Virus record (IMG/VR): IMGVR_UViG_3300044641_005534
Coordinates: 1 to 35,352 of that record
Direction: 5' to 3' (one strand)
DNA length: 35,352 bases
From: a virus
Part shown: positions 62 to 21,037 of the stretch, piece by piece
Position numbering within the stretch: the first letter of the stretch is position 1
How the letters are laid out: every line of letters begins with the position of its first letter
The notes under the pieces: generated by a model
Told to the model about the DNA's origin: nothing
Database searches by the model: none
What the model saw: only the letters and a program-made list of their open reading frames with translations
Position numbers and translations under genes: made by a program

Positions 62-3000
62 CTATCGCGGCTTGGCGACGGCCCGAAGGATCACGCTGCC
101 GTCCTCCTGTGCTACGGCCTGCACCTTGAGCGAGGTGTTGCGGGGCAGTAGCAGCTCGCCGGGTCCGCCGACGCCTAGGCTCGAGGTGCGAAGCGCATTT
201 GCCCCAGCCGGGATCTTGACCCGGATTGCCGTCTCTCCCGGTCCGGGCCGGTAGTCCAAGTCCAGCGGCAGGTAGGACTTTTCCCTGACCCACTTCCCGG
301 CAAGCCCTTCGGGGTTATCGATGTCGGGCAGCGGTGCGTAAGCGATCACGTCTTCATCGATCTTTGTCTCGTCGATCGCCAGCAGCATGTCGATGTTGGC
401 TATGGCTCGGCGCACCTCCGGAGTCGTTGCCTCCTTGGGTGCCCCTGACTGCAGGTGCATCTCTATGGCCCCGCGCATCTGTCCCATGTAGTCGCGCACC
501 GAGTCGTCCTCTTCGGGTGCCGTGATGAGCAGCTCGTCGCGCTCGTCAAAGTAGGCTCTGGCGTCGTCGCCTTCCAGCGGCTCCGGCAGGCTTTCGTCCC
601 CGTTAGCGAACCGCTCGAGCCATGCGACCCTGTCCTTCAGGCTCTGGCGGACCTGCTCGCGCATCGCTTCGTCTTCGAAGGGTGCCTGATCGACCAGCTC
701 GTCGACCCGCTCGGGCGGTAGCCGCAGTGCCGCGTCCCTTGCCCCGGCCAGCATCCCATCTTCTGTGATTTTCATGGTGCCGTTGGCCTGACCCCGTTCG
801 CTCTGCATCGTCCACAGCTCGCTCGGGACCGGCCCGTAGTCCTTTCGTGCTCCCTGTGCTCGGAAGGCCAGCGCCCCGCCCTGATCGAGCCGGATCGGTC
901 GTCCGCTATTCCATAGGACGTTGTCCTGTGTCAGTCCGATCACATCCCAGTTCGCCAGCAGCGCGTCCGCTACGAAGCCGTCACCGAGTTCTTCATTCGG
1001 CTGCGACCACTGTCTGATCTCACCCTTGATAAGCGGGTAGGCCACCGCCAGCTGCTTGCCGTATTCCGGGTGATCATGCTCGACGATCCCGGCGTTGGAC
1101 ACCCGGATACCCAGCTCGCGGTAGATCGAGTTAGCCAGCAGCTCGCTGGCGACCCTGTCGGCGTTGCCCCGGTATGGCTTCAGCAGCCACGAGTTCCCGT
1201 CCTTGTCGACGGCGATCCGTGCTCCGTTTGAGCCGCCTGCTGCTTCTACGTCGGTCAGCTCGACGTTGTAGCGCGGGATGCCCTGCACCGGCGCTGGCGG
1301 CATCTCGAGCATCGACCGCTTCAGCGGCTCCACGCGCTCAGGCTTGTTCTTCTGGGTCCAGCCGAAGAGGTCGAAGGTGGGGGTAGCCATGCTGGGCCGC
1401 TCGCCCCGATAGACAGCAACCGCATCTTTCCCGATCTGCTCTACTCGAGGAATGGCGTTGGATGGGTATGTCACTTCCACAACCTCAGCAGTGTCGTCGG
1501 CGTCTAGCAGCCACTCTTGCTCGTCGTCGAGCACTCCGGGCGCGTCCGTGAACTCGTCGATCGGCTCCCATTTATCGGCCACCCGGAAACCCCTACCCTT
1601 TGTTGCTATCTGGAATGTGAAGGTGACCGTGTCTCCGGCATCCTCCGGGTAGTCCAATGCAACCCTGCCGTCTGGCAGTATGTTCGCAAGCTCGCTTGAC
1701 TGTGCGACAGCAAACTGAGCGGCAATCGTCGGGTCTGTCGAGTAGCTTCGGGGTCCAGATGTGCCGCCCTCTGATGTGCCCCGAACGAAGTAGCCGTTGT
1801 CTGGCGCTTCGACTACAGGAGAGTTTGCGATTTCCCAAGCGAAGGCTTCTTCCTGCTCGGCGGTGTATTCGCCGTCGGTCCCGCCCCAGTCTCTGATCCA
1901 TGTGTCGATGAAGTTCGCCAAGTCTTCATCATGGTTAGGCCCCTTTGTCGGGGTCGCCATCGCTGGTAGTTCTCGACCCATGCGCTCGGCGACGCGCTCG
2001 GCGGCAGGTGGTTTAGCACGGTATGGCGAGTCGGGGTTGGCGATAGCGTCTCTGACGCGGTCAAGAGCGCCGGTTCGATCGGGGTCACCCAAGCGTGCCA
2101 GCACCACATCTAGGCGCTCATATTGGGCCTGCTCGTTGTCGACTATCACTTCCTGTTCTTCCATGAAGCTGACCGTGAGATCTAGTTCCGACAGCTTCTT
2201 GACCACGTCCAGCCCGGTGGCGTTTCGGGCCGTGTGAATGGTCACGACCAGCTCGTCGCCCGGTTCGTCTAGCTTCCCCTTGGGGTCAGTTACCGATTCA
2301 AGAGTTGCCGGGTCGGGGATCTGGGTAGCACCGGGGCTTCTGATGATGTTCCCTACCGTTGCCGGACCCGTGTAGGTGGAGCCGTCAGCTCGACGAATCT
2401 CCCAGCCTGCATACTCTAGGGCGATCCGCTCGCTCTTAGACCAGCCCCGGTAGCGACCTGCTGTCGGCGGGGGCATACTGGCGGCTTGACCCCGGAATAG
2501 CGGTCGGTCGAACTTCTCTCCATTTCGTATTTCCCAGCTCAGGGCATCTGCCTGCTCGGGGTTATCCAAGGCCATTTGCGGGTCTGACTGCCAGTCGTCC
2601 AGTGCGCTAGCAAGGTTCCGGCGGTGGTCGGGATTGCTGGCGGGGTCGTAGGTCGGCGTCGCCATTTGCTCGAGCCTGTCGAGGGCCGCATCTTTGGCTG
2701 GCGGCATGGCCGCTGCCGGTTTCCCGCTCCGGTCGGCTTCAATAGCGTCAAGCACTCTCTTGCGCAGTATTTCCTGCTCGGCGTCTACTGCTTCCGCCGA
2801 CTCATCCCCGGCGGTCGGCAGCTTTTCGCCCGCTCGAGCCAGAACCACTTCCACGCGGCTGTAGTTCTGCAGCGTGTCCGGCTTGAGTATGTGCTCCCCT
2901 TCCCTTGCCCAGATCCAGTTACCTTCCGGATCGTAGGGTCCGACCTCCTGCATGATCTCGGGCAGGTCAAGTCCGTTGGCTCGGTCCGCCACGAAAAGTG

Positions 3001-6000
3001 TTGCGACCAGCTCTTCACCCGGCTCGAGCGACTCGACCAAGTCTGAGGTCAGGCGATCTGCGGGCCTTATCTCCCCGTCCGGCCCGCGTCGACCCAGCCC
3101 TTCGTTGATCGCAAAGTCTATAGCGATATTCACGTTGTCCGACCAGCCCCTAGCGCCTTGGTCCGGGTCGGTAAGGTTCGGCGGCTGCCCCCGGAAGAAC
3201 GGGCCTTCGGTTTCCGGAGCGGTGTCTATTGCATGCTGCAGAATCCGCATCGCCTCTTCGTTCTGGCGCACGTCATCGGGCCAGTTGCACCACATCTTGA
3301 TTACTTCCCTTAAGTGCTGATCGAATTCTGGCCCCGGCTCGAAGTCAGCGGTCGGGGTTGCCATCGCGTGGTCAAGTGCTTGGTCCCGCGCTGCGGTGAG
3401 TGATGCGTCCGCCACCTCTTCGCCCGAGCCGTCGTAGCGCCTTTCGCCCAGCCGGTATTTCGAGTCCGGGTTCAGGACGGCTTCCTCAAGCCGGACGTCT
3501 GCGGATGTCGGGTCGTCTTCACCGCCGGTTTTAATTACGATGTCTATTCGCCGGTAGTTGTTAAGCCGCTCATTGTCTAGGATGTGCTCGGCTTCAGATT
3601 CGTATGGATTACTCCAGTAGGGTGAGTCGGCAGGGTCATCGAGCATCCAGTTCAATGCCTGCTCTTCCGCATCGTTCAGGCGTGCCCTGTATTCAGCCTG
3701 CAGCGGTGGCTCTGGCGGCGCTTCGATACCTTCGATCGTGAGCTGGTCTGCGGGGGGCTTCAGTTCCTCTTCGACACGCTTCAGCGCATCGAAGCGTGCG
3801 TTTTCTTGTAGGCTCCACAGTGCCCGCCCTAGCTCGGTGTCCCTTCCCGGCATGTCGGCGGGCTTTGCCCGGATGTCGTCTGCTTCAAAGTTCACTCCGA
3901 ACTCTTCGCCCAGCACCCGTTTCATCACTCGCCGTATGGCCGTTGAGCTGACGGCAACTTCCCCAACCTGTCCGCTAGCCATATCTACGAAAGTTTCAGT
4001 AGCGAGCTTCCGCTCCGTGGTGATTGCCGCTTCGACGGCAGCAGGATCCCGGTAGCCGACCGTTTCATTCAGCCCTTCCAGCTCTTCCGTTACGTCGATG
4101 CCGACCGCCGAGTCAGCGACGTATATCGACGCCACGACAATGTCACCATCTCCGAGCTGTGCCCCGCTCCGCTCGCGCTCACTTGCCTTGCGTCGGGTGC
4201 CGTCCTTGGTTCTAAGCTCGTAACCCCCCACATCGGCGAAGCCTATGGCCGTTTCGAGATCGGTAGACCAGCCGCGCAGCCTTCCGCTCTGGTGCGGGGG
4301 CGCTGCATCAGCGGGCTGCCCCCTGTAGAACGGTCCCTGCTTCTCTTCGGCGTTCTCTACGGCTAGGGGGATAGCCGATCCCCGCATCGCGTCGGGATCG
4401 CGGACCCAGACCAGCAGCTCTTCACCCAGATTGCGCAGGTCTGCTTCGGTCTGCGCTCTGGTCGGGGTCGCCATCTCGACGGCCCGGTCGAGCGCGGCGT
4501 CCTGTGCCTGCCGGTGGATCTCGAGCCGGGTCGGACGGGTAGGAGTCGCCATCGACACCGGTCTTCCGGCTCCAGTGGGGAGTCGCCCGGTCCGCCAGCC
4601 CCAGCGCGGGCTTGTCTGTCGCAGCTTCTCGGCTGCGTTCGGGTATTTCTCTGCCAGCATCTCGGGCAGGAGGACGTGGACGGCGAAGTCGATCAGCCGG
4701 AAGTTTGCGCAGGGCGACAGACCCTTGCCGCCGACCGAGAACCTGCTTACCGGGTCCAGCTCATGCTCGGTCGCGTGGTCGGCGAGTTTGTCCCAATCGA
4801 CGTCGTAGGGGTCAATGCCGATTGCGTTCAGGGCGCGGCGTGTCAGGTCTTCGACCGGCCCTTCCCCGTCCTTGATTCGGTCCAGCATGCTCGGGGTCGC
4901 CATTTCGAGCAGTTGTTCTTCCCGATCGCTCAGCTCCCTGCTGTCGGAGCCGCCGGGGGTCAGGCCGAGCGAAGCCATGATGTCGCGTGCTTCATCGTCC
5001 ATGTCGAAGTCGGCGTCGCTCACCCCTTGCGCGATGGCGTCGTCGATCGCCTGATCGTCTAGCGCCCACTCAAGATCCTCTTCAGGCTCGACCGGCTTAC
5101 CCGGCGGGGTGAAGGTCTCGCCGGTCTCGAGCGCCCGGCTGACCTTGGCTTCGACGGTGGTTTCGGTTATCTCGCCGTTGTCTTCCCCGCCTATGGCGAG
5201 CACCACTTCGACTCCCCGGTAGCCGTCAACACTCTCGTTGTCGAGAATGACTTCCATTTCGTTCTCGAACTCGTTTTCAAGGGGTCTTAGCGACCCTTCG
5301 GCCTGCGGGTCATTGAGTAGCCTGTCCACCATTTGTTCGAGCTTTTCGGGGCCAGCCAAAGCTCTATAGGCGGGATTAGACCATTCATCCCTGATCGTCG
5401 ATTGCGCCCGCTCGACCCTGCCGGTTTCGTGGTCATCACTTATGTCTTCATGCTTCTGGTTGATATCGATGCCGTATTTGGCTGATTTGGCTTCGTAGAG
5501 TGTGATGGTCAGGGCTTCACCGGGTGCCAGCTCGCCGATAGCTTCTGCCACTCCCGAGTAGCGGCGGCTATTGCCATCCGACTCCCTTACAACCGGGCCT
5601 TCGAGTGCGAACGCGATCGCGGTCTTGAGGTCTTTGCTCCAGCCCCGGAAGCGTCCGCTTCGGATCGGATCGGGCCTGTCTCCCGGCTGCCCCCGGAAGA
5701 AGGGACCGGCACCCGGCGAGCTGACTGCAAGCTCCCGCTGCAGCGCGTCAAGTTCAGGCCCCTCCACCGAGTTTGGCTCGTCCTGCCACTGCATCAGCGC
5801 GTTGCCAAGGTCGAAGGCGTGCTCTTCGGCGCTCGGCATGGCGGTAGGCGTAGCCATCTCCACCTTGTCAAGAGCTTCATCCTGCTTTGCCTTGAACGCA
5901 ATCGTGCCACGCTGGGCCGGGTCGCCGTCAACGGCAGGCGTGAACCTGCCCGACTTCATTCCAACGCGCCTGCCGATACCTTCCGTCTCAGCATTGGCGA

Positions 6001-8581
6001 GCCGCGCCGGGGATGGGTAAACCTTTTGGCTTCCGTCTGGCCGCTCGATTGACACATTGCCCTTCGTGCCCCTAGTTACCACGGACCCGTCGGCGAGCTG
6101 CAGCTGATCGCCCGGTGGCATCGCGCTCATCTTGGTCAGCAGGGCGCGGCGGGGGTCTTGGTAGCGACGCGGGTCGTAGCCACGTGGACCGGAGACCTGC
6201 ACGGCCTTTGTCCGCCTTGCCCCGCCGGGAACCTTTGGCTTGGGTCGCGCTCTCCGTCGAGACCGGGTTCTTTCGTTTGCTCGCTGCACGTCCAGCAGCT
6301 CGGTGCTCCGGACCCTGATTCGCCGCCCCATGCCGTCGGTCACATCGATGGCGAAGCCGCCGTCTGGCCCCGAGCCGGTAGAGGCTATTCGGTCCAGCGT
6401 TCCCACCTGCAGGTCGCCGTTGTTCCGCTTTATCCGGATGCGGTCGCCCACCTTGACCGGGCCTGTTACCTTTCGCCCCTTCAGGCTCTTCTTGGTGGCG
6501 CTTGCCACCTTTTGAATGTCGTCCGGGTCCGGTATCCGGATCTCGTAGTCCATGATCCCGCCGTTCGCATCCTTGATCGGCACTTCGAGTATTGGCTGGA
6601 CCCTGCCGTCGTCGAGCATCTGGAAGTCGATCACTCTCCCGTTGTAGTCGCGGTCACCCCGGCCCGTGACTTTCACGACGTCGTTGCGGTCGAATCCGGC
6701 GTCGGGGAACTGGATGTCCACCAGCCTTGGGGCGAGCACTCCGCGTCCGATCGGCGCTGTGACCAGCTGGTCGCGCCCCGGTCCCGCCGTTGCTCCTGCC
6801 GCAGCCATTTTGTTGCGGACGATCTCGGCTGCCTGCTCTTCCGAGATGCCTTCAGCGTCGGCCAGCCGTCGGGCCAGCTCTGCTATCCGCTCATCGGTTG
6901 TTGACATGCCGAAGCTCAGCTTCTCGAGCAGGGCGCGGCGCTCGCGCTCGGGGACGTTGGCCCTGTCGAGCACTTCGACCAGCCCCGTCCGCTGCAGTCG
7001 ATACATGCCCTTGAGCACGTCGTTGTCTGGGTCTTGCTCGATAAGCCGCATGACGTCAAAGTTGCCTTCGGTTATGAAGGCGTCCGTCATGATCACGTGG
7101 GCCAGCTCTTCGGTCAGCGCCTCTTCGGTGGCGAAGCCTTCATGGGATCTGTAGTCGTCCAGAGTGATTGCGCTGGCCGCGTGTATGAGTTCGTGAGTCA
7201 CAACCCGGCGGGCTTCATAGAGCTGGGCCGCTTCCCCGGTCGTCAGCGTTTCGCCACGTGCCTGCTTTGCGCTCAGGCGCTCCAGCGTGTCTGCCGTGTC
7301 CTTTCCGATGACGATTCTGGACTTGCCGGGACCGTCGGGTGCCCTTCGACCGCCCGAGATGTTGGGATCGATTCCCACTTTGCCAACCTCGTCCATCACG
7401 CCGCCATTGATCCCGGTGGCTTCGGTCAGCTTTGCCTTGAGTCCATCGACTATCTGGTCGAGGTCTGGTGATACGGATGCTCCGCTGATCCTGCCGGTCA
7501 GGTCACCAGCGTCGGCAGCTCTTGTCGGTGTCGACATGTCGTCTAGGTCGGGTGCCGCTATCGTCCGCTGGCCCCCACGCGATGCGATCGGTGGCGCATC
7601 TGCCCCCATCAGCCGTCGCAGGATTTCCTGTATTGAGATGCGTGGTGCGAAGCCGCCCCGCTTCGGCATGAAGCGTCCGCCCCAGATCGTTCCCTTCGGG
7701 TAGCGGCGGTTCCACTGCAGCTCCATTAGCTCGGTTTCGTCCAGCGGCGGGAGCCAGCGCCACTCGGCTTCGCCTAGGTCATACAGGTCTACGATCGCCT
7801 TGGCTCTCTGGATCGCTTCCGCCTTGTCGGGCAGCTCCCCGGCTTCCATGTAGCCCATGCCTATGGCTTCATCTCGCGTCAGCAGGTCGCACCGGCACCC
7901 GGTATGGACCGGCGGGTTCAGGTTGTCGAGCACTTCCCAAGGCCACCAACCGACAGCGGCCATCGCTTCGCAGTCCGGGGTGTGCTTCTTTACGTAGGGG
8001 CTAAGGATCCAGTAAGCGCCTTCCGACGAGAGTCGCTTGACAAGTCTTCGCTTCACGGCAGCTTCGACTCGAGCTGCTGCCGCGTCATCGTGTTGATCCA
8101 TGTAGCGCTGCTCGCGCTCTAGGATCACGTCGACGGCGGCTACCGGGTCAGGTTGCAGCAGGGCTTGCGGCAGGTCGCGCTCGAGCCGCTTGCGCATGTT
8201 CCGGATGAAGTCTGCTTCTCGCTCCCGCTCTATTGCGGCCTGCTCGCGGATCTCCGCGTCGTCGACTTCGTCTTCGGAGAACTCTGGCCGCACGATGTCG
8301 TAGAGCCAGCTTTCGTCGCCGCGTGCGGTTACGAGTGCCGCCAGAAACAGCGTGACCAGCGTTGCGGTCCGCCCAGATTCGGCTCCCGCTGACGCTAGGG
8401 GGTTTGCGGGGCTGGCCGCAGGTATGAGTCCGCCCGAGCCAGCCGCCAGAAAGAAGGCTGCGGCTGCGGCATCGTCTCGCTTATTCCCGCTACCGGCTTC
8501 GGCTGCCGCGAGTAGGGCTTCTGTGTCGTCCCTAGCCTTCTGCTTGGCTTTTCGGCTCTGTTTGCTTGCGGACGACGCCAT
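62..8581 (-). CDS. giant MuF-type polyvalent polyprotein (metallopeptidase, ART modules, kinase-like domain)
   Basis: A 2,839-residue head-associated protein, far longer than a normal MuF protein (about 250-500). Domains in order: Ala-rich hydrophobic segments at 37-85; MuF head-morphogenesis domain about 100-250, with the Cys/His signature at 194-233 ending PPVHTGCRC; zincin-type peptidase with HELIH at 463-467 and candidate third ligands E481-E492; two SH3/KOW-like segments about 633-736; five ART-like modules with R/S/ExE triads R963-S982-E1108/E1110, R1420-S1439-E1663/E1665, R1797-S1814-E1894/E1896, R2030-S2048-E2142/E2144 and R2267-S2281-E2354/E2356; a HipA/PI3K-like kinase domain about 2435-2660 (K2468, D2565); and a degenerate ART-like tail. 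MATP[TS] recurs at residues 909, 1227, 1344, 1370, 1740, 1973, 2208 and 2398, with MSTPT at 349. Known context: phage polyvalent proteins combine MuF, peptidase and ART domains and enter the host with the DNA. Self-cleavage at MATPT is inference. The GGAG upstream of the start supports 8581. Confidence 0.9.
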   Translation of the reverse strand: MASSASKQSRKAKQKARDDTEALLAAAEAGSGNKRDDAAAAAFFLAAGSGGLIPAASPANPLASAGAESGRTATLVTLFLAALVTARGDESWLYDIVRPEFSEDEVDDAEIREQAAIEREREADFIRNMRKRLERDLPQALLQPDPVAAVDVILEREQRYMDQHDDAAAARVEAAVKRRLVKRLSSEGAYWILSPYVKKHTPDCEAMAAVGWWPWEVLDNLNPPVHTGCRCDLLTRDEAIGMGYMEAGELPDKAEAIQRAKAIVDLYDLGEAEWRWLPPLDETELMELQWNRRYPKGTIWGGRFMPKRGGFAPRISIQEILRRLMGADAPPIASRGGQRTIAAPDLDDMSTPTRAADAGDLTGRISGASVSPDLDQIVDGLKAKLTEATGINGGVMDEVGKVGIDPNISGGRRAPDGPGKSRIVIGKDTADTLERLSAKQARGETLTTGEAAQLYEARRVVTHELIHAASAITLDDYRSHEGFATEEALTEELAHVIMTDAFITEGNFDVMRLIEQDPDNDVLKGMYRLQRTGLVEVLDRANVPERERRALLEKLSFGMSTTDERIAELARRLADAEGISEEQAAEIVRNKMAAAGATAGPGRDQLVTAPIGRGVLAPRLVDIQFPDAGFDRNDVVKVTGRGDRDYNGRVIDFQMLDDGRVQPILEVPIKDANGGIMDYEIRIPDPDDIQKVASATKKSLKGRKVTGPVKVGDRIRIKRNNGDLQVGTLDRIASTGSGPDGGFAIDVTDGMGRRIRVRSTELLDVQRANERTRSRRRARPKPKVPGGARRTKAVQVSGPRGYDPRRYQDPRRALLTKMSAMPPGDQLQLADGSVVTRGTKGNVSIERPDGSQKVYPSPARLANAETEGIGRRVGMKSGRFTPAVDGDPAQRGTIAFKAKQDEALDKVEMATPTAMPSAEEHAFDLGNALMQWQDEPNSVEGPELDALQRELAVSSPGAGPFFRGQPGDRPDPIRSGRFRGWSKDLKTAIAFALEGPVVRESDGNSRRYSGVAEAIGELAPGEALTITLYEAKSAKYGIDINQKHEDISDDHETGRVERAQSTIRDEWSNPAYRALAGPEKLEQMVDRLLNDPQAEGSLRPLENEFENEMEVILDNESVDGYRGVEVVLAIGGEDNGEITETTVEAKVSRALETGETFTPPGKPVEPEEDLEWALDDQAIDDAIAQGVSDADFDMDDEARDIMASLGLTPGGSDSRELSDREEQLLEMATPSMLDRIKDGEGPVEDLTRRALNAIGIDPYDVDWDKLADHATEHELDPVSRFSVGGKGLSPCANFRLIDFAVHVLLPEMLAEKYPNAAEKLRQTSPRWGWRTGRLPTGAGRPVSMATPTRPTRLEIHRQAQDAALDRAVEMATPTRAQTEADLRNLGEELLVWVRDPDAMRGSAIPLAVENAEEKQGPFYRGQPADAAPPHQSGRLRGWSTDLETAIGFADVGGYELRTKDGTRRKASERERSGAQLGDGDIVVASIYVADSAVGIDVTEELEGLNETVGYRDPAAVEAAITTERKLATETFVDMASGQVGEVAVSSTAIRRVMKRVLGEEFGVNFEADDIRAKPADMPGRDTELGRALWSLQENARFDALKRVEEELKPPADQLTIEGIEAPPEPPLQAEYRARLNDAEEQALNWMLDDPADSPYWSNPYESEAEHILDNERLNNYRRIDIVIKTGGEDDPTSADVRLEEAVLNPDSKYRLGERRYDGSGEEVADASLTAARDQALDHAMATPTADFEPGPEFDQHLREVIKMWCNWPDDVRQNEEAMRILQHAIDTAPETEGPFFRGQPPNLTDPDQGARGWSDNVNIAIDFAINEGLGRRGPDGEIRPADRLTSDLVESLEPGEELVATLFVADRANGLDLPEIMQEVGPYDPEGNWIWAREGEHILKPDTLQNYSRVEVVLARAGEKLPTAGDESAEAVDAEQEILRKRVLDAIEADRSGKPAAAMPPAKDAALDRLEQMATPTYDPASNPDHRRNLASALDDWQSDPQMALDNPEQADALSWEIRNGEKFDRPLFRGQAASMPPPTAGRYRGWSKSERIALEYAGWEIRRADGSTYTGPATVGNIIRSPGATQIPDPATLESVTDPKGKLDEPGDELVVTIHTARNATGLDVVKKLSELDLTVSFMEEQEVIVDNEQAQYERLDVVLARLGDPDRTGALDRVRDAIANPDSPYRAKPPAAERVAERMGRELPAMATPTKGPNHDEDLANFIDTWIRDWGGTDGEYTAEQEEAFAWEIANSPVVEAPDNGYFVRGTSEGGTSGPRSYSTDPTIAAQFAVAQSSELANILPDGRVALDYPEDAGDTVTFTFQIATKGRGFRVADKWEPIDEFTDAPGVLDDEQEWLLDADDTAEVVEVTYPSNAIPRVEQIGKDAVAVYRGERPSMATPTFDLFGWTQKNKPERVEPLKRSMLEMPPAPVQGIPRYNVELTDVEAAGGSNGARIAVDKDGNSWLLKPYRGNADRVASELLANSIYRELGIRVSNAGIVEHDHPEYGKQLAVAYPLIKGEIRQWSQPNEELGDGFVADALLANWDVIGLTQDNVLWNSGRPIRLDQGGALAFRAQGARKDYGPVPSELWTMQSERGQANGTMKITEDGMLAGARDAALRLPPERVDELVDQAPFEDEAMREQVRQSLKDRVAWLERFANGDESLPEPLEGDDARAYFDERDELLITAPEEDDSVRDYMGQMRGAIEMHLQSGAPKEATTPEVRRAIANIDMLLAIDETKIDEDVIAYAPLPDIDNPEGLAGKWVREKSYLPLDLDYRPGPGETAIRVKIPAGANALRTSSLGVGGPGELLLPRNTSLKVQAVAQEDGSVILRAVAKPR
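1376..5857 (-). repeat. tandem ART-like modules separated by MATPT linkers
   Basis: Within the polyprotein gene, a block of roughly 200-370 codons is repeated five times. Each copy starts just after a MATPT pentapeptide and contains an FRGQ-like motif, a GWS-like motif, and an ExE followed by (I/V)LDNE-like residues. The linker is often preceded by an ALD[RKH] motif, as in DAALDRAVEMATPT. MATP[TS] codons start (minus strand) at 5857, 4903, 4552, 4474, 3364, 2665, 1960 and 1390. The fifth module is the most divergent (VRGT, YST, EQE). The copies are well diverged, so duplication is old or modules were acquired separately. Confidence 0.8.
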
Positions 8582-9358: not shown

Positions 9359-10753
9359 GTGGTCATTTGTGGCGACAGCCTGTCGGTGCTCGCCGACCTA
9401 GAGCCTAACTCGGTGCATGCAGTCGTCACGGACCCGCCCTACTTCATCTCTTTCATGGGTAGGGACTGGGACGGCGAGGACAACGTGGCCGCTACCGCTG
9501 AGTTCTGGCGGGCCGTCAGCCGGGTTTTGGTCCCCGGTGGTCATGTTCTCGCCTTTGGTGCCCCGCGCACCTACCATCGGCTAGCAGTAGCCATCGAGGA
9601 TGCGGGCTTGGAGATCCGCGATTCGCTGCACTGGATGTTTGGGTCTGGATTCCCCAAGTCTCTCAACGTCTCGAAGGCCATCGACCGGGCAGCTGGTGCG
9701 GAGCGAGAGGTTGTCGGGACCAAGATCGGCCTGCCGGGTTATCACCTGAGCGGCCACGACTCTCCCACCGGTGCCTTCGGTCATGGCTTGGGAAGCTCCA
9801 CCGAGGAGACTCGGGCGGCTTCGGCTCAGGTTACGGCTCCCGCCACCGAGGAAGCTCGGGAATGGGAGGGCTGGGGCACGGCGCTGAAGCCTTCCCACGA
9901 GCCAGTCGTGGTGGCTCGGAAGCCCTTGGATGGCACCGTTGCCGAGAATGTCGTCTCGCATGGGGCTGGTGCCCTGAACATCGATGGCACTCGGGTATCT
10001 CTGGGGTCCGAGTATGACCCGACTAAGGTGCAGCGGCAGTCCAAGGCCGAAGGTGTGGTCGGCTTTGCGGCGGAGGGCTTGATCGGGACCGAGATCCCCA
10101 CCTACAACCCCGGTGGCCGGTGGCCGTCTAACGCGGTCCTGTCTCATCTGCCGGATTGCGAGCTGGTCGGCACGAAGAAGGTCAGCACCGGCACGGCGGT
10201 CCGGCGCAACCTGCCCGATGAAGGGTCCGCCAACGGCACCGTCGAGAACGTCCCGCCGACCCAACGCGACGTGGACTACGGCTACGGGGATCCCGACGGC
10301 ATGGAGGAGGTCGAGGACTGGCGGTGTGCTTCGGGATGTGCGGTTTCGTCTCTCGACTTCCAGAGCGAAGAGCATGGCGGCGCGGCCCGGTTCTTTCCCG
10401 TGTTCCGCTACGTCACCAAGGCCCGGAGCGCCGAGCGCCACGCGGGTGTCGATCGCAATCAACATCCTACGGTCAAGCCCGTCGAGCTTATGCGGTGGCT
10501 GGTGCGGCTTGTCACCCCGCCCGGCGGCACGGTGCTCGACCCTTTCCTTGGCTCAGGCTCGACCGGGATCGCCGCCCATCTCGAGGGCTTCGACTTTATC
10601 GGTATCGAGATGGAACCGAAGTCGGCTGCTACCGCCGAGGCTCGAATCGCGTTCTGGTCAGATGCGGAGCCGGGGGTCGACACGGCAGACGCGCTCGAGG
10701 GCTTGCTTCGCAGGGCTGAGATTACCGACGCTGGTCAGCTCGGGCTTTTCTAA
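9359..10753 (+). CDS. DNA methyltransferase (N4-cytosine/N6-adenine, beta-type motif order)
   Basis: A 464-residue S-adenosylmethionine-dependent DNA base methyltransferase of the N-4/N-6 family. The catalytic motif DPPY is at residues 25-28 and the AdoMet-binding motif DPFLGSGST at 394-402, preceded by HPTVKPVELMRWL. Catalytic motif first and AdoMet motif last is the beta arrangement shared with CcrM-type enzymes. The long middle (about 110-345) should hold target recognition; the segment WGTALKPSHEPVVVARKPL at 172-190 is typical of phage and prophage members. It starts with GTG immediately after the upstream stop, with no separate Shine-Dalgarno. No restriction partner is visible, so protection of phage DNA or gene regulation is more likely than a restriction system. 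The target site cannot be read from sequence. Confidence 0.93.
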   Translation: MVICGDSLSVLADLEPNSVHAVVTDPPYFISFMGRDWDGEDNVAATAEFWRAVSRVLVPGGHVLAFGAPRTYHRLAVAIEDAGLEIRDSLHWMFGSGFPKSLNVSKAIDRAAGAEREVVGTKIGLPGYHLSGHDSPTGAFGHGLGSSTEETRAASAQVTAPATEEAREWEGWGTALKPSHEPVVVARKPLDGTVAENVVSHGAGALNIDGTRVSLGSEYDPTKVQRQSKAEGVVGFAAEGLIGTEIPTYNPGGRWPSNAVLSHLPDCELVGTKKVSTGTAVRRNLPDEGSANGTVENVPPTQRDVDYGYGDPDGMEEVEDWRCASGCAVSSLDFQSEEHGGAARFFPVFRYVTKARSAERHAGVDRNQHPTVKPVELMRWLVRLVTPPGGTVLDPFLGSGSTGIAAHLEGFDFIGIEMEPKSAATAEARIAFWSDAEPGVDTADALEGLLRRAEITDAGQLGLF

Positions 10754-11249: not shown

Positions 11250-11585
11250 CTAGAACAGCGAAGGCCCGACGGCGATAGTCTGCTCGTCGGCGTATACGTA
11301 GTTGCCGGTGGACTCCCACCGAATGGCCCACGTTCCCGGCGCGTCGAGGAGGAGGTCGACCTGATACACGCCCGTGCTCGGGCGACTCAGGGCGGTGTCG
11401 GTTCCGTAGACGAGGGTCGTTGGGGTGCGGTCTTCGGGGGAGAGGCTCTTGAACCGAACGGTCGTTGGGTTGACCTTCGACCCGCTGGCGCGGTCCATGA
11501 ACGTCAGGCTCAGCCGAACCATGTTGCCGACCGTATGCGGCCCGGTCTGGATCTCGCCTTGGACGACTTTCGGCGGCACCGTCAT
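11250..11585 (-). CDS. small beta-rich protein next to portal
   Basis: A 111-residue protein with an alternating strand pattern and an Ig-like ending: a GVYQVDLLLDAPGTWAIRW segment followed by a YVYADEQ strand. Its ATG overlaps the portal stop by 4 bases (ATGA), so it is translationally coupled to the portal. Small beta-sandwich proteins in this position often act as head decoration or connector proteins. I cannot assign a specific family, and the structural role is inferred from the neighbour and fold pattern only. Confidence 0.75.
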   Translation of the reverse strand: MTVPPKVVQGEIQTGPHTVGNMVRLSLTFMDRASGSKVNPTTVRFKSLSPEDRTPTTLVYGTDTALSRPSTGVYQVDLLLDAPGTWAIRWESTGNYVYADEQTIAVGPSLF

Positions 11586-13624
11586 GAGTCCTCCTTCAGG
11601 ACTTCAGCGGCTTCATCATAGTCCAAGCCGAGCTGTTTCCGGCGCAGCGCCAGTCGCTTTCGCGCTTCCGGCGAGAGCCGCTTGGCTGCAGCCGTCTCGG
11701 GCAGGTCGCCCTTGGTTGCAGCTTCCATAGCCTGCTCGGGTGGCGGTGAGCCGAAGGACGCAGCATCTGCTTCGCCGGTCGGTGCCATTCCGGGCTGCGG
11801 CGGGACGAGTCCGGGTTCCGGGCCTGTTACCTGCTGCATCGGTCCCTGCTCCGGTGCCGGTGCGGGCATGGCTGCGGCTTCCTGCTGGGCCTGCAGAGCT
11901 GCCATCGCCGGATCTTGGTAGCCCGGTGGGAACACCTTCTCGACGACCTGTCCGGGGTCTTCCATCTCGAGTCCTTCCCCGAGAGCGACGCCCAGCAGGG
12001 TCCGGCTCAGCTCCATATTGGTGCCGTTCGGGTCGAAGGTCCGTGCGATCGTGGAGACCGAGTTGACCAGATCGCTCATCATTCGGCGGAGCGGGTTCGG
12101 CAGTGAGAAGTCATAGCTCAGGTCGCGCTTGCGCTCTTCATCGGTTGCCGGTTCCGGCTCAGGTGCACCCAGCTCCATCGCGGCTTCCTGCGTTGCCATC
12201 GCCTGACCACCGACGGACTCCATGCCGGTTGCTACTGGCGGGGAGTCGGTTGTCCCCTCCTGCTCCATCTCTTCCTGCTTCTTGGCCCACTCTTCGTCGC
12301 TGAGAGTCTCGGTAATCGCTCCGGCCTTGACCGCCTCTTCGATTACCCGGTCTATGAACCAGCGGAAGAGCTGCTCGAAGACCTCCTGTCGGGACTCGAC
12401 GGCTTTCAGGACCGGCAGCTCCATGCTGGTGGCAGTAGCAAGGTTTGCCGAGCCTATGTCGCCTAGGTAGTGCTGCGGGAAGTGCGTGGCCGCGCTGATC
12501 TGCGAGCGAATCATCTGCCCGTCCACGTTGGCTCCGGCACTTCCGGAGTCCAGCTTGAAGGATTCGTGCTCGACCTGCTCGTTTTCGGTGATCACCGATC
12601 CCGACCTAGGCCCGATCAGGTAGTCTTCTCCGGCGGTATCGACCGAGCGTCCCAGCTCTCCACGCTTCGAAAGGATCTGGGTAGCCAGCTTGCGGACCTG
12701 ATTCGGCGTGCCCTTGACCTTCCGCTTCATCACGAAGGCGGCGGCTGCCTTGGCCGCGTCCACTCTGGCTTCCATCAGCGAGTTGAAGGCATTGGCCCAG
12801 CGCAGCACCCTGTGCATCGTGGGGTGTCCGAATGCCATCTCGCCCGTGCGGTTGATCGCCACGTGGTAGACACGGCCCTTACCCATCTTGGCTGTCGGTG
12901 CCTTCTGGCCCCGGTTTGGCTCGTTTCGCCAGTGCTGGTAGTAGAGAATCCGCTCGCCACGCTTGCGGTCGAGGTCTGAGTCGTAGGCCGGGACGTCGTT
13001 TACGTAGTCCCACTTGATGTGGCGTCGACGGCTGACGTAGTAGATCACTTTCCTGCGGTTATCTTCGTCTCGCACGACGTTCTCGACGGTGTCGTGGTCG
13101 AGCATCCCGAGCTTGACCTTGCCGTCGGCTCCGGTAAACATGAGCATGAAGAGGTTGCTCTGCAGCGACAGGTCTGTCCCGAGTGCCATCTGTGCCGGGT
13201 AGCTGGTCAGAATCAGCTGGTTGTCTTCATCGTTCCACGCTTCATCGATGATCTCCTGCACCTTCGGATCTCGGGCCTGCGGTGCTGGCACGCCCCGCCC
13301 TAGGACGAAGTCGTTCATCAGGTCGACCGCAGCACCCAGCTGGGGATCCTGCTGCCACGCTACCCGTGCCTGCTGGACGAGCTTCCGCCGCTGGACGGCC
13401 TGCATGTCCTGCTCGCTGCCCCCAAGGTAGTCCAGCGACTGCCACGCCAGCAGGTCCAGCTCCTTGCGGAGTGTCCGGCGTTCGATGGCTTCGGCTTCCA
13501 GCAGCTCGAGCCGGTTGTCTTCGACCACCTGAGCGCCCGAGCGCCGTGCTGCGGCTTCAGCTATCCGCCGAAGGACGCCACCTTCGGTGCTTTCGGCACC
13601 AAGTTCTGTGGGATCGTCAGGCAA
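11582..13624 (-). CDS. phage portal protein
   Basis: A 680-residue portal, the dodecameric ring at the head vertex through which DNA is packaged and ejected. The core (about 80-440) has the usual order: a helical N-terminus, a beta-rich wing, then the conserved region ATHFPQHYLGDIGSANLAT at about 385, followed by the long helix KAVESRQEVFEQLFRWFID. The last 100 residues are low-complexity, rich in Met, Pro, Gln and Ala, and end in a basic helix. It overlaps the upstream gene by 8 bases and the downstream gene by 4. Normally the portal follows the large terminase directly; here the two are separated by about 13 kb of opposite-strand accessory genes. Confidence 0.88.
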   Translation of the reverse strand: MPDDPTELGAESTEGGVLRRIAEAAARRSGAQVVEDNRLELLEAEAIERRTLRKELDLLAWQSLDYLGGSEQDMQAVQRRKLVQQARVAWQQDPQLGAAVDLMNDFVLGRGVPAPQARDPKVQEIIDEAWNDEDNQLILTSYPAQMALGTDLSLQSNLFMLMFTGADGKVKLGMLDHDTVENVVRDEDNRRKVIYYVSRRRHIKWDYVNDVPAYDSDLDRKRGERILYYQHWRNEPNRGQKAPTAKMGKGRVYHVAINRTGEMAFGHPTMHRVLRWANAFNSLMEARVDAAKAAAAFVMKRKVKGTPNQVRKLATQILSKRGELGRSVDTAGEDYLIGPRSGSVITENEQVEHESFKLDSGSAGANVDGQMIRSQISAATHFPQHYLGDIGSANLATATSMELPVLKAVESRQEVFEQLFRWFIDRVIEEAVKAGAITETLSDEEWAKKQEEMEQEGTTDSPPVATGMESVGGQAMATQEAAMELGAPEPEPATDEERKRDLSYDFSLPNPLRRMMSDLVNSVSTIARTFDPNGTNMELSRTLLGVALGEGLEMEDPGQVVEKVFPPGYQDPAMAALQAQQEAAAMPAPAPEQGPMQQVTGPEPGLVPPQPGMAPTGEADAASFGSPPPEQAMEAATKGDLPETAAAKRLSPEARKRLALRRKQLGLDYDEAAEVLKEDS

Positions 13625-16891: not shown

Positions 16892-17163
16892 CTCCGGCGG
16901 GTGTCCCGGTCCCTGTCGAGGACGCGCTGTATCGGTGGCACGCCGACCGGTCCTACTCGTCGCACGACGACAACCGGATCACGGTCCTTGAGGCGTCTCG
17001 CCTTGGCGAGGTCTGGTCTGTCCGGTATCGGCTGGACCGCCGGAGCCGTCGGGAGGTCAGCACTGCGACCTTTGTGACCACTCCCCTGCGCACCACCTAC
17101 GGGGTTGCGACCGTCGAGGTCAGCGCGGGTGCGGCTCGGGTCGTCGCTGGGAGGTCGTTGTGA
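16888..17163 (+). CDS. small beta-rich protein
   Basis: A 91-residue protein: helix VEDALYRWHADRSY, then four or five strands (ITVLEASRLGEVWSVRYRL, EVSTATFVTT, YGVATVEVSAG). Its ATG overlaps the preceding stop and AGGAGG lies seven bases upstream. No recognised family; the strand pattern is typical of small phage host-takeover proteins in general, which is not evidence of function. Confidence 0.65.
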   Translation: MTPAGVPVPVEDALYRWHADRSYSSHDDNRITVLEASRLGEVWSVRYRLDRRSRREVSTATFVTTPLRTTYGVATVEVSAGAARVVAGRSL

Positions 17164-17235
17164 GGTCTGCCCCGAATCTTTTCGTGCGGTCTGTCAGGTC
17201 TGCGGGTCCGGGCGCGACCCTGTCTGTAACGTCAA

Positions 17236-17248
17236 CCGACCAAGGAGG
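17236..17248 (+). promoter_or_regulatory. array leader without an obvious promoter
   Basis: CCGACCAAGGAGG is intact, seven bases... before ATG 17255, but no TTGACT/TACATT pair at the usual distance is visible in the 91-bp gap. The upstream 31-base hairpin element (17191-17221) occupies the place where the promoter lies in other units. The gene may be read from the unit upstream. Confidence 0.6.
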
Positions 17249-17254
17249 TCAAGC

Positions 17255-17536
17255 ATGAACGCATCTCAGGAGGGGCCAGCTCGTCTGGTCGTGGTGGTGC
17301 CGCCCAGCGTGGCTGGCGGGTCAGAGGACCATCTGCGCTGGTTCGCCGGTCTGAAGGAGGCTCGGGCGCACGCGCTCGAGTACTTCCTTGCTGGCGACTC
17401 TGTCGAGACGTCGGTGGTGGTGGCCGTCGATGAGCAGGCTGCCGAGGGCGTGCCCGGCTGGGCGTCCGAGGATCTGGAGTGGAACCGGGCCGGTGTCCGT
17501 GACTGGCTGAAGCTGGAGCTGGAGCTGGGAACGTGA
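17255..17536 (+). CDS. small protein of unknown function
   Basis: A 93-residue protein: the strand LVVVVPPS, a helix FAGLKEARAHALEYFLAG, a strand ETSVVVAVDE, then an acidic C-terminal helix. The start is fixed by the array leader. It overlaps the following GTG by four bases. The beta-alpha-beta pattern suggests a small alpha/beta fold; no family recognised. Confidence 0.7.
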   Translation: MNASQEGPARLVVVVPPSVAGGSEDHLRWFAGLKEARAHALEYFLAGDSVETSVVVAVDEQAAEGVPGWASEDLEWNRAGVRDWLKLELELGT

Positions 17537-17973
17537 GCGCCGGGTTCCGGGGCCGTCTCGCAGGCCGTGACGCTTCCGGCGGGGTGGTGCGGCTTGGCGA
17601 TCGTGATTCGATGGGTCATGTCGTCGGCTTCATCCAGTCGGACGGGTCGTGCTGGGAGTCGGTGCTCGAGCACGACACATCCACCGCTGCGGGGCGCTAT
17701 GCGGACGCTGTGCAGGAGTTTCGGCGTGGCCTGACCCCTGACCCCCCGGACGTCCGTGCCATCGCTCAGGCGGCTTGTATCGATCCGGCGAATGTCGACG
17801 CCGCTGTGCAGGAGGCCGAGGAGTCGTTGGCCTTCTACGACCGGCTTCGGGACATGTCGCGTCCGGGTGTCGCTCGGTTCATGCTCCACTGCCTGCAGGA
17901 GGACCGGACCTTCGATTCGTGGACCGAGTTTCTGGACGCGCTCGGGGAGTGGCTCGAGGAGGGTCGGGGCTAG
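17533..17973 (+). CDS. hypothetical protein, helical
   Basis: A 146-residue protein starting with GTG in the preceding stop (GTGA). A short beta-rich N-terminus (VVRLGDRDSMGHVVGFI) is followed by a long helical part with many acidic residues. Its TAG stop sits in a CTAG shared with the convergent 32-residue gene, so the two stops overlap by four bases. Function unknown. Confidence 0.65.
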   Translation: MSAGFRGRLAGRDASGGVVRLGDRDSMGHVVGFIQSDGSCWESVLEHDTSTAAGRYADAVQEFRRGLTPDPPDVRAIAQAACIDPANVDAAVQEAEESLAFYDRLRDMSRPGVARFMLHCLQEDRTFDSWTEFLDALGEWLEEGRG

Positions 17974-18068
17974 CGGTCCCCGGCCTGCCGGTTGAGGTGC
18001 CACTCGAAGATCTCGATCCCGGCGATGTAGGTGGCGGCGATGGCGAGGCCGAGCAGCGTGTCGGTCAC
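17970..18068 (-). CDS. 32-residue membrane peptide
   Basis: GTG start overlapping the stop of the larger minus-strand gene (GTGA), stop in a CTAG shared with the convergent plus-strand gene. The product has one hydrophobic segment (TLLGLAIAATYIAGIEIF) and a charged C-terminus (EWHLNRQAGDR), the form of a small single-span protein. The exact fit between two gene ends supports a real gene. Confidence 0.55.
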   Translation of the reverse strand: MTDTLLGLAIAATYIAGIEIFEWHLNRQAGDR

Positions 18069-18601
18069 TCGCCCTTGCCGCGCTTCTCCGCCCGGTCGAG
18101 CTGGTCGCTCCGGCGTCGGGCCTTGGCAGCGATCGCCTGTGCCGCCTGCCGGGTCTTGGGGACCGGCTCACCCCACGCGGTCGCCATGAGTGCTAGGCGC
18201 GTCGGCTTGCCGTCGTCTCCGACCATCGGCCCCTTGGGGTTGGAGTAGAAGCGCGTCGCCCAGCTAATCCAGCGGCGCTTGTCTCGGGTGCTGGCCTTCG
18301 AGTAGCTCTTGACCCCCGGCTTGATGTTCTGCCCCTGTGCCTTCAGCGATCGTCTGCCCGCAGCGTTCAGCCCGCCCTTCGGGTTCTTGCCGCGCTTGGT
18401 CGTCCATGCCTGCCCTTCCAGCAGCTCGTCGAGGGCTGTCTCCGGCTCAGGCGGCTTCGGCTCGAGGTCGACGATCCCGTATTGCCGCAGGGTGTCGATC
18501 GCCTTGTCGCTTGTCTCCCGGTCTGGTCGTTTGTCCACGTCTGTATCGTAGCGCGGCTTGACCCTGCCCGCCCGTTCTGTTACGCTGCTCGTCGCAATCA
18601 C
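18065..18601 (-). CDS. basic hypothetical protein (GGLNxxGR motif)
   Basis: A basic protein of 178 residues, or 157 if it starts at GTG 18538. It contains KNPKGGLNAAGRRSLKAQG followed by a basic segment and an alanine/arginine-rich C-terminal helix. The GGLNxxGR motif is reminiscent of small basic DUF6321-like phage proteins, although the usual SFCARM ending is replaced. It is one of only two minus-strand genes inside the plus-strand array. The promoter of the next plus-strand gene (18558-18586) lies inside its 5' end if the longer start is used, which favours the shorter start. Neither start has a good ribosome site. A DNA-binding or head-associated role is possible. Confidence 0.65.
   Translation of the reverse strand: MIATSSVTERAGRVKPRYDTDVDKRPDRETSDKAIDTLRQYGIVDLEPKPPEPETALDELLEGQAWTTKRGKNPKGGLNAAGRRSLKAQGQNIKPGVKSYSKASTRDKRRWISWATRFYSNPKGPMVGDDGKPTRLALMATAWGEPVPKTRQAAQAIAAKARRRSDQLDRAEKRGKGE
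18558..18586 (+). promoter_or_regulatory. promoter of the multi-HTH gene
   Basis: TTGACC, 17-base spacer, TACGCT. Unlike its neighbours the spacer lacks TATGC and the leader is diverged (ACGACCTATCTAGGAGG, with an AGGAGG ribosome site). Confidence 0.65.
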
Positions 18602-18622
18602 GACCTATCTAGGAGGCTTCCC

Positions 18623-19738
18623 ATGACCCTTTCCGACCCCAGCGGGGCCGTCGCCCTGCCCGAGATCACCGTCCCTGTCGATGCCCGCCAGCGGCGCGAT
18701 CGTGAGCGGCGCTCCCTTGGCCTTTCGTGGTCCGAGTGGATCCTTTTCAAGGCGTGCGAGTGGACCCGTCTCTACGGCGTGCCCCCGTCTGCGATGGATT
18801 GGAACGTGCCGATGGCCCGTCGTTCGGCGACCCCCGAGCGTGCGGCGCTGCTGGCCGAGCGTTACTCGGAGCACGTCTGGCCGTCGACTTCGACTACGGC
18901 TTCGAAGTTCGGGTCTTGGAACGCCATGATCGAAGCGGCAGGTCTGCCCGCCATCCCCGGTGGCCGTCGCCGGACCCGTGCTCGGGACCAGTGGCCCAAG
19001 GCTCAGGCTCGGCGTGAGCGGATCGAGGCGCTGCTGCTGGAGGGTCGCTCTCGGCAGGAGGTGGCCGACGCGCTCGGGATCTCCCGCGCTTCCCTTGCAG
19101 GGGACATCGTCCGGATGCGGCGGCTGGGCTTCGACGTCCCCGACTCGAACCGGTCTGGCGTGACCGTTGTCAGGCCGCACATCGAACCGCCCGAGGTGGT
19201 CGGGCCTTCCCCTGCCGTGCTGCAGCAGATCGCCGCGCTGTGGCGGCTGGGTGCTCCGGTTCAGGAGATCGCTGACACCTTCACCGGCGGTCACCCCGGC
19301 GTGCTGCTCTCCCACGTCGAGCGGTGCCGTGCCGCCAACCCTTCCCTGCCCGTCAGGGATCTCGAGCGCAGCGAGGCCGAGCGGCAGCTGTCGCCGGAGC
19401 GCGAGGCCCGCTTGCAGGAGGTCGCCGAGCTGTGGCGCTCGGGGCTTCGGTCGGAGGTCATCGCCGATCGCCTTGCCGTTGCCCGCTCGACCGTCTGGGC
19501 CGACGTAGCGCTTCTCCGCGATCGTGGAGTCGCCCTGCCGGAGCGCCCGCCCGGACGTCCCCGGCTGGATGGTCCGTCTGCCCCGGTGCTGCAGCGTCGT
19601 GCCCGCGTTCGGACTATGGATCACGCGGGGCTGAACACCGCAGCGATCGCCGAGCGGCTGGGCGTGACCCCAGCGACCGTGCGGGCCGACCTGCGAGCGA
19701 TTCGGGACGCTTCGCCGAGCCGCTACGGGGGCGCTTGA
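18623..19738 (+). CDS. multi-HTH DNA-binding protein with an HNH-associated repeat
   Basis: A 371-residue protein with four helix-turn-helix modules at about 130-168, 198-237, 261-301 and 328-363. Each has the pattern LWRxGxxxxxIADxLxVxxxTVxxDVxxLR. The N-terminal part (67-108, with WPSTSTTASKFGSWNAMIEAAGL) resembles the repeat found next to HNH homing endonucleases, but no nuclease domain is present. The start at 18623 is set by AGGAGG. It lies in the middle of the array under a variant promoter and leader, and its TGA stop is inside the -35 box of the next promoter. Four HTHs would suit binding to a long or repeated site; a regulator of the repeated array promoters is the obvious hypothesis, not shown. 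Confidence 0.8.
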   Translation: MTLSDPSGAVALPEITVPVDARQRRDRERRSLGLSWSEWILFKACEWTRLYGVPPSAMDWNVPMARRSATPERAALLAERYSEHVWPSTSTTASKFGSWNAMIEAAGLPAIPGGRRRTRARDQWPKAQARRERIEALLLEGRSRQEVADALGISRASLAGDIVRMRRLGFDVPDSNRSGVTVVRPHIEPPEVVGPSPAVLQQIAALWRLGAPVQEIADTFTGGHPGVLLSHVERCRAANPSLPVRDLERSEAERQLSPEREARLQEVAELWRSGLRSEVIADRLAVARSTVWADVALLRDRGVALPERPPGRPRLDGPSAPVLQRRARVRTMDHAGLNTAAIAERLGVTPATVRADLRAIRDASPSRYGGA

Positions 19739-19763
19739 CTTCTGTCGGTCGGGATGCTATGCT
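19735..19763 (+). promoter_or_regulatory. array promoter; -35 contains the upstream stop codon
   Basis: TTGACT, 17-base spacer ending in ATGC, TATGCT. The TGA of TTGACT (19736-19738) is the stop of the multi-HTH gene. Leader CCGACCAAGGAGG at 19775-19787. Confidence 0.85.
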
Positions 19764-19793
19764 GTGCGCAGCAACCGACCAAGGAGGTATCAG

Positions 19794-20000
19794 ATGATCG
19801 TAGGCACCGTAGGAACCACCGCGACGCTTCACGTCCTGCGCCCCGCCAAGAGGCGACACGTCAACGAGAACGTCGAGGGCAAGCTCGAGCCGAGCTGCCG
19901 GTCCCGTTCGTCGCACTTCGGCTTCGCCGTCGACCCCCAGAGCGCGTTCGCCGCTGACGCCAAGAGGTGTCGTCGCTGCTTCGGCGAGGTGGCCCAGTGA
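19794..20000 (+). CDS. small basic protein with a CxxC
   Basis: A 68-residue protein; the N-terminus is beta-like (IVGTVGTTATLHVL), the rest is basic and ends with a CRRCFGE knuckle plus an isolated Cys (EPSC), a possible partial zinc site. It has the look of the small HRDA/CRRC-type actinobacterial proteins that carry a short zinc knuckle. The start is fixed by the array leader. Overlaps the next GTG by four bases. Confidence 0.65.
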   Translation: MIVGTVGTTATLHVLRPAKRRHVNENVEGKLEPSCRSRSSHFGFAVDPQSAFAADAKRCRRCFGEVAQ

Positions 20001-20413
20001 TCTCGCTGGTCGAGGTCGCCGAGTTCGGGGGCCGTCGGGAGGAGATCCGCGACGTGTCCGAGGCCAGCGATCGTGACCGCCTGCAGGAGGCGTTCCGCGT
20101 CTGGCGGAAGCTCACCGGCGGTCGTGCTCGAGGGAACTTCGGGTGCTGCGGCTCCTGCGCATCGGCGGAGCTTGCCGGGATGGACGAGGGCGATCGCAGC
20201 TTCGTGTTCTGGCACCGTCAGGACGACGAGGCGTTCGCCCCGGACCCTTGGCACGGCACCCACACCGACACCCTGCACTCGTCGCTGTGGATCAAGCACA
20301 GCGCGTCTGCCGAGGAGCTGGAGCTGCTCGTCGAGCTGGCCGAGGCCGTCGGGCTTCAGGCCAGCTGGGACGGCAGCGAGTCCCGCTGTGTCGAGGTGTC
20401 GCGGCAGGACTAG
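19997..20413 (+). CDS. DUF6891-like protein
   Basis: A 138-residue protein. The segment NFGCCGSCASAEL, then FVFWHRQDDEAF, and finally a helix followed by a VGLQASWDG strand match what I recall of the DUF6891 family: a CC-x2-C cysteine cluster, a tyrosine or phenylalanine-rich strand with HxQD, and a C-terminal WDG strand. Function of that family is unknown. GTG start in the previous stop. A 10-bp-stem terminator follows. Confidence 0.7.
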   Translation: MISLVEVAEFGGRREEIRDVSEASDRDRLQEAFRVWRKLTGGRARGNFGCCGSCASAELAGMDEGDRSFVFWHRQDDEAFAPDPWHGTHTDTLHSSLWIKHSASAEELELLVELAEAVGLQASWDGSESRCVEVSRQD

Positions 20414-20425
20414 GGCGGGAGCGAT

Positions 20426-20454
20426 CGCGGCGCTCGGGGATCTCGGGCGTCGCG
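20426..20454 (+). terminator. unit-end terminator hairpin
   Basis: CGCGGCGCTC pairs with GGGCGTCGCG (10 bp, two G-U pairs) around a 9-base loop. The left arm begins inside the GCGATCGCGG motif that follows the stop codon. Confidence 0.65.
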
Positions 20455-20464
20455 GTCGGGCCGC

Positions 20465-20493
20465 TTGCTTCTCTCCGGCATCTATGCTACGCT
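20465..20493 (+). promoter_or_regulatory. array promoter
   Basis: TTGCTT, 17-base spacer ending TATGC, TACGCT. Leader CCGACCAAGGAGG at 20511-20523; the ATG is five bases beyond. Confidence 0.8.
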
Positions 20494-20528
20494 ACCGTTG
20501 TTAGCAGGAACCGACCAAGGAGGATCGC

Positions 20529-21026: not shown

Positions 21027-21037
21027 CGATCGTGGAG

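Follow-up and report, generated by a model that had tools for sequence, protein, structure and literature searches.

The DNA analysed here, hereafter the window (G000), is an IMG/VR virus record of 35,352 bases, which is probably a fragment. An open reading frame (ORF) of 2839 amino acids with an ATG start occupies positions 62-8581 on the minus strand. The first-pass annotation had located the open frame correctly; its strand is corrected here to minus, and the plus strand over the same positions contains many stops. This gene, referred to below as the cargo gene, shares its strand with the portal and terminase genes, and the gene order is kept in three relatives (G004, G005 and G006). The orthologues in these relatives (2659, 2389 and 1871 aa, respectively) contain no internal stops; since the frame is intact in all three, the ORF is not an assembly artefact. 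The interval from the cargo gene to the portal gene contains a DNA methyltransferase gene (9359-10753) on the opposite, plus strand.

No close relatives of the whole 2839-aa protein were found among viral contigs, and no relatives were found in sequenced bacterial and archaeal genomes. Because the whole-protein search was empty, relatives were reached via the terminase, the MuF-like region, the kinase-like domain and the portal protein; domain B (see below) added no new phage. G004 (IMGVR_UViG_3300032288_003949, 80.9 kb) was found via its terminase (77% identity; portal, 85%). G005 is IMGVR_UViG_3300015371_000006. The G004 orthologue is 61% identical to the window protein in the MuF-like region and 59% identical in the kinase-like/ART unit, and the middle is largely different. 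The features of the locus are as follows.

62-8581, minus strand: ORF of 2839 aa, putative multi-module MuF-like cargo polyprotein (stop codon, 62-64)
7538-8581, minus strand: N-terminal MuF-like region, residues 1-348 (HTPDC...PPVHTGCRC signature and YPKGTIWGGRF element; near the portal gene)
7523-7537, minus strand: linker 1, MSTPT, residues 349-353 (MKSPA in G004)
6782-7522, minus strand: predicted zincin-like metallopeptidase, residues 354-600 (H463-E-L-I-H467 and EEALTEE helix)
5858-6781, minus strand: conserved chassis region, residues 601-908 (from alignments; small and beta-rich, SH3/KOW-like by eye)
4904-5857, minus strand: linker MATPT (909-913) and ART-like module A (909-1226; motif, paralogy and R/S/ExE)
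4553-4903, minus strand: linker MATPS (1227-1231) and conserved non-ART domain B (1227-1343; 64% identity in G004, 59% in G006)
4475-4552, minus strand: linker MATPT (1344-1348), followed by a 21-residue spacer (motif)
3365-4474, minus strand: linker MATPT (1370-1374) and ART-like module C (1370-1739; motif, paralogy and R/S/ExE)
2666-3364, minus strand: linker MATPT (1740-1744) and ART-like module D (1740-1972; motif, paralogy and R/S/ExE)
1961-2665, minus strand: linker MATPT (1973-1977) and ART-like module E (1973-2207; motif, paralogy, R/S/ExE and AF2 model)
1391-1960, minus strand: linker MATPT (2208-2212) and ART-like module F (2208-2397; motif and R/S/ExE), the most divergent module
512-1390, minus strand: linker MATPT (2398-2402) and kinase-like unit (2398-2690; 40-59% identity in G004, G005 and G006)
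65-511, minus strand: VIP2-like ART tail lacking the catalytic residues, residues 2691-2839 (PDB profile and Pfam)
11582-13624, minus strand: portal protein gene (context; phrog_10963, E 2.8e-34; 85% identity to G004)
26866-28605, minus strand: terminase large subunit gene (context; phrog_675, E 2.5e-86; 77% identity to G004)

The N-terminal region had been labelled MuF. Both the placement after the portal gene and the W...C...PPxHxxCxC signature of that type are present, and the HTPDC...PPxHxxCxC form is invariant in an alignment of six phages, which supports the label. A profile match, however, is absent: no MuF match was obtained in Pfam (with the 2839-aa protein and six aligned relatives), PHROGs or NCBIfam, and the CRC end alone was aligned with one annotated MuF protein (E 0.053). 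Because the region was recognised by none of the profile libraries, we infer the assignment from the signature and the synteny, and use the term MuF-like.

In the peptidase region, HELIH occupies residues 463-467, so that E464 had been numbered correctly. The HExxH motif and an EEALTEExAH helix are invariant in the alignment of G000, G004, G005 and G006. The AF2 model of this region (pLDDT 76) consists of three strands, the HExxH helix and a second helix; this agrees with the zincin-like MPTase layout described in PMC5512222 (three-stranded sheet, HExxH helix and second helix with Glu). Foldseek gave no match to the model at E<=0.001, and the weak matches included elastase, MATCAP, a SprT-like protein and a zinc metallopeptidase. 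Profile comparisons of the peptidase and the ART modules gave no significant matches. As a separate observation, a 4683-aa protein of another relative, G014 (L134:2096-16147), has three HExxH motifs, and the peptidase profile matches it in two regions.

The five ART-like modules (starting at 909, 1370, 1740, 1973 and 2208) are paralogues: their alignments begin at the M of MATPT, with pairwise E values from 1e-22 to 4e-3. The R/S/ExE residues claimed for them were confirmed, in order, in 5 of 5 modules: R963/S982/E1108-x-E (A), R1420/S1439/E1663-x-E (C), R1797/S1814/E1894-x-E (D), R2030/S2048/E2142-x-E (E) and R2267/S2281/E2354-x-E (F). No PDB sequence match for an ART module was found by profile search. 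The AF2 model of module E (pLDDT 82.9) was compared with known structures by Foldseek; 6 of the first 11 matches were ARTs (best E 0.51, none significant), and the top matches included the cholera A subunit, ART toxin/immunity pairs, ExoT and Vis. The ART assignment of the five modules is thus well motivated by their residues and no more than suggested by the fold. The number of ART copies, which had been regarded as unusual, is not so, a phage-derived protein with 12 ARTs having been published (PMC5512222).

The kinase-like domain has a weak HipA_C match in the relative G013 (E 0.07), and a domain resembling the kinase-like unit also occurs in named phage records. By profile, the C-terminal tail is similar to VIP2-type ART structures (E 3.6e-6); its match to Pfam ADPrib_exo_Tox is weak (E 0.011), and its sequence has neither the catalytic R nor the ExE. 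Its earlier description as a degenerate ART therefore holds.

MATP[TS] occurs eight times in the 2839-aa protein (residues 909, 1227, 1344, 1370, 1740, 1973, 2208 and 2398). These eight had been recognised before; MSTPT at residue 349, between the MuF-like and peptidase regions and orthologous to MKSPA of G004, had been overlooked, which brings the total to nine. Shuffles of the protein gave a mean expectation of 0.001 copies, and MATP was the top-ranked pattern in an unbiased scan of gapped 4-residue patterns. All nine linkers sit at the starts or ends of modules, in agreement with the boundary positions proposed earlier; two of them (1344 and 1370) are 26 residues apart. ALD[RKH], said to precede the linker often, was found at 4 of the 8 MATP[TS] sites and is missing from the other 4. 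Linker 1, beside the peptidase, is predicted to be disordered (pLDDT 34-38, within the first 20 residues of the model). The linker flanks are only weakly disorder-prone on a simple scale, and no such signal was seen in the 3786-aa protein of G004 or in the G005 giants.

The expectation that MATPT itself would be conserved at the boundaries in homologues did not hold: the positions keep a linker, and its sequence is replaced by another throughout. In G004, MATPT is absent and the linker is MxSP, with 39 copies (11 in the 2659-aa orthologue, 4 in a neighbouring 1781-aa protein and 24 in a 3786-aa protein), three of which fall within 11 residues; in the parts of the contig examined, MxSP is essentially absent outside these three large late-region proteins. 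In G005 the linker is GQxSP, with 19 copies (7 in the 2389-aa orthologue and 12 in a 2561-aa giant) and single stray matches outside the giants. One such GQASP lies in a long ORF of G005 (17002-21171, minus strand; L090 and L091), tape-measure-like by eye, and may be a chance occurrence. The linker of G006 is APQSPG (three copies) and that of G014 is RSEG[IL] (four copies in the 4683-aa protein). At the junction before the kinase-like unit, the window, G004, G005 and G006 have MATPT, MASPN, GQASPP and APQSPG, respectively; the core shared by these four phages is x-[ST]-P, and the residue before x is phage-specific. Not every orthologous junction is occupied in each phage.

The segments between linkers differ in content from phage to phage. 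In G005 they contain GNAT, ART and zeta-toxin domains, and each domain recognised in the relatives (GNAT, ART, zeta toxin, PI3/4-kinase-like and phrog_20074) lies within one inter-linker segment. The giants of G004 and G005 are homologous only in the N- and C-terminal chassis, and the cargo between is unrelated. In two further relatives, G013 and G016, the chassis is complete and includes a peptidase-like domain (in the HExxxH form), but cargo and linkers are both absent. Since these cargo-less chassis lack linkers, the linkers go with the cargo; their retention of the peptidase-like domain indicates that this domain does not persist solely to cut linkers. The notion that the peptidase was lost where the linkers were lost was dropped, HExxxH being a known variant form and not a dead site. 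In the linker-bearing giants of G004 and G005, HExxH is confined to the MuF-like protein and is missing from the 3786-, 1781- and 2561-aa giants; any cutting of the latter would thus be in trans. As a separate observation, the inter-linker cargo of G004 includes a second kinase-like module (Pfam PI3_PI4_kinase, E 4e-5; L012:10044-18023, residues 2083-2127).

No repeated linker was found in the kinase/ART giants of three unrelated phages, Actinomycetia phage DSL-LC01, Gordonia phage Sixama and Enterobacter phage phiT5282EW, so the linker motif is not general to such giants. Other candidate border elements were observed. In phages with related portals (L117:12054-19175, L120:12098-19177, L127:12109-18129, L115 and L118), the giants reiterate E..[LW]LHPRGRGGKW, with as many as 4 copies in one protein; the position of the first copy corresponds to that of YPKGTIWGGRF in the window protein. 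In L025:7820-18736, NY[HNS]P[NSG]QPRD[SAY]RGRFGSGG occurs nine times over three proteins (one copy with Q for R) and is a candidate phage-specific border element; in L026:5185-10658, [SP]RNCGDGAGGFK..N.CA.GGD occurs four times over two adjacent proteins. L136:5135-9334 encodes a minimal chassis protein whose kinase-like domain is interrupted by a NUDIX domain (E 7e-10).

The linker copies were also compared at the DNA level. The seven MATPT copies of the window have seven distinct DNA spellings, and the similarity of their flanks is no higher than chance; therefore the identity of MATPT is kept at the amino-acid level. The linker as a recent DNA repeat was accordingly rejected for the window. 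In G004 and G005, codon sharing among the copies is above chance (0.46 vs 0.25 and 0.64 vs 0.49, respectively), so that DNA copying may explain part of the linker uniformity there. The modules of the 3786-aa giant of G004 are, with one exception, mutually unrelated by BLASTP, yet have a common linker. On these comparisons the motif is selected as protein and switches in concert between phages, which is the behaviour expected of a recognition site. Module 1927-2084 of the same giant (phrog_20074) is 49.6% identical (E 2e-30) to a free-standing protein of the window (20529-21026, plus strand), and a homologue is encoded by a 129-aa gene in Stenotrophomonas phage DLP_6. Since this module stands alone elsewhere, at least one linker-delimited unit is a whole protein. 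The phrog_20074 protein thus has its own gene in the window phage and is an embedded, linker-delimited module in the giant of a relative.

We propose that the gene encodes a 'polyvalent' cargo polyprotein associated with the phage head, which would be packaged in the virion and injected with its modules as active enzymes. A conserved chassis, consisting of the MuF-like N-terminus, the zincin-like peptidase, the 601-908 region and the C-terminal kinase-like and degenerate ART unit, would bear a variable effector insert, here five putative ART enzymes and the conserved domain B. M-x-T-P-[TS] between the modules would be a protein-level recognition site particular to this phage, most likely a processing site for a phage-encoded protease; the modules would be separated prior to ejection into the host, in the course of it or afterwards. 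The embedded zincin would cut in cis here and, in the relatives, in trans on the sister giants. That the linkers are processing sites for a phage-encoded protease, with the embedded zincin as the leading candidate, is rated at a little under an even chance. The strongest argument for a trans-acting partner that recognises the linker is the concerted switching at orthologous junctions between close relatives, and the strongest counter-argument to the embedded zincin as the cutter is the linker-free, peptidase-bearing chassis of G013 and G016. A wider form of the same idea is tentative and rather doubtful: such phages would carry dozens of pre-made effectors and early proteins in linker-delimited chains, on two or three giant virion proteins, in a private code cut at infection by one phage-borne protease that has a sequence specificity of its own and co-evolves with the whole set of linkers, and new cargo would be recruited by gaining a linker.

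The chief rival, which we regard as unlikely, takes the linker as an uncut seam or spacer that moves with cargo cassettes inserted or duplicated within a lineage and is tolerated as a hinge. The seven DNA spellings and unrelated flanks in the window speak against it, although the ART paralogues there could have brought the linker along, and the codon sharing in G004 and G005 is in its favour. Linkers are missing where cargo is missing (G013 and G016), and the tandem linkers, 26 residues apart in the window and three within 11 residues in G004, resemble seams; on the other hand, the linker is common to mutually unrelated modules, the motif changes together at orthologous junctions between close relatives, and a hinge would not need an invariant sequence of 4-5 residues. 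Concerted phage-specific change would fit any partner protein and not a protease alone, and the linker might thus be a binding or translocation tag for a scaffold, portal or chaperone, one per module, serving packaging or threading without cleavage. The HPRGRGGKW-type repeats of the sister phages, also in giant head-gene-proximal proteins, agree with this idea, which is nevertheless improbable: a single tag should suffice for a covalent chain, yet there is one at each module boundary.

Cleavage could also be due to another enzyme, namely the prohead (capsid maturation) protease instead of the embedded zincin. Processing of ejection proteins by prohead proteases is known from T4 (gp21) and the phiKZ proteases. 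Such enzymes recognise a motif particular to the phage and cut a number of its head and ejection proteins there; in SPN3US, the prohead protease (gp245) cleaves many of them after A-X-E (PMC10052503). The presence of the linker in giants without HExxH is in keeping with this, whereas the major capsid protein of G004 and a neighbouring protease/scaffold-like ORF (no family match) lack MxSP, and we assign the prohead protease a low probability. That each MATPT is an internal translation start, with the modules made separately, is scarcely tenable. The motif does begin with ATG in the window and G004; however, a Shine-Dalgarno-like sequence precedes only 1 of 8 motif ATGs in the window and 1 of 8 and 4 of 18 in two G004 proteins, and the GQxSP and APQSPG linkers of G005 and G006 contain no Met. 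With no Shine-Dalgarno enrichment and Met-free linkers, internal starts were rejected.

The closest known systems are the polyvalent proteins of phages and conjugative elements (Iyer et al. 2017, PMC5512222), for which autoprocessing by the MPTase has been proposed and which contain up to 12 ARTs. The window protein resembles them in being multi-domain and encoded among packaging genes, with a zincin-like MPTase, multiple ARTs and kinase-like effectors, and GNAT effectors in the relatives. Its peptidase-like, five ART-like and kinase-like domains and VIP2-like tail lie within the 2-15 distinct effector-type domains per polypeptide given for that class, and its gene has the head/packaging location. 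Unlike those proteins, it has a phage-specific motif at every module border, and such a motif is common to two or three giants of one phage; no comparable linker or short tandem motif was found in the text of PMC5512222. P1 DdrB, as cited there, is likewise a large phage head protein with an MPTase domain and is processed before packaging; its domain content is different, and no reiterated linker is reported for it. In MuF polymorphic toxins (Jamet et al. 2017, PMC5576092), MuF-effector fusions with ARTs and metallopeptidases among the effectors are hypothesised to be delivered with phage DNA. A putative MuF-type head protein is fused to effectors here as well; those toxins usually have one C-terminal toxin domain and belong to temperate phages, whereas here several effectors lie in mid-protein, the C-terminal chassis is conserved and there is no MuF Pfam match. 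Prohead-protease substrates share with the present proteins a short phage-specific motif with a constant core, repeated over several proteins of one phage; those cuts mostly remove N-terminal propeptides, whereas here the motif separates predicted effector modules between which cleavage would occur.

Multi-effector phage proteins, proposed MPTase autoprocessing, 12 ARTs, MuF-effector fusions and phage-specific prohead-protease motifs are thus already published. In the open-access papers searched we found no report of a phage-specific linker that delimits modules over several giants and is swapped as a set between relatives. Processing of polyvalent phage proteins has been proposed before, and the border motif would predict the exact cut sites. 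It would also allow cargo modules to be read automatically from genomes, offer a natural series of protease-substrate co-evolution, and supply compact phage effector candidates, which probably act against the host early in infection; a single G004 protein contains over 20 modules.

Elsewhere in the window, at least eleven small genes lie on the plus strand between 16473 and 31783, each after a repeated leader ending in AACCGACCAAGGAGGT, and several of them have a promoter-like TTGACTT...TATGCT upstream. These genes look like an early array with one promoter per gene. The DNA-ligase ORF of G004 has the same leader, translated as RNRPRR.
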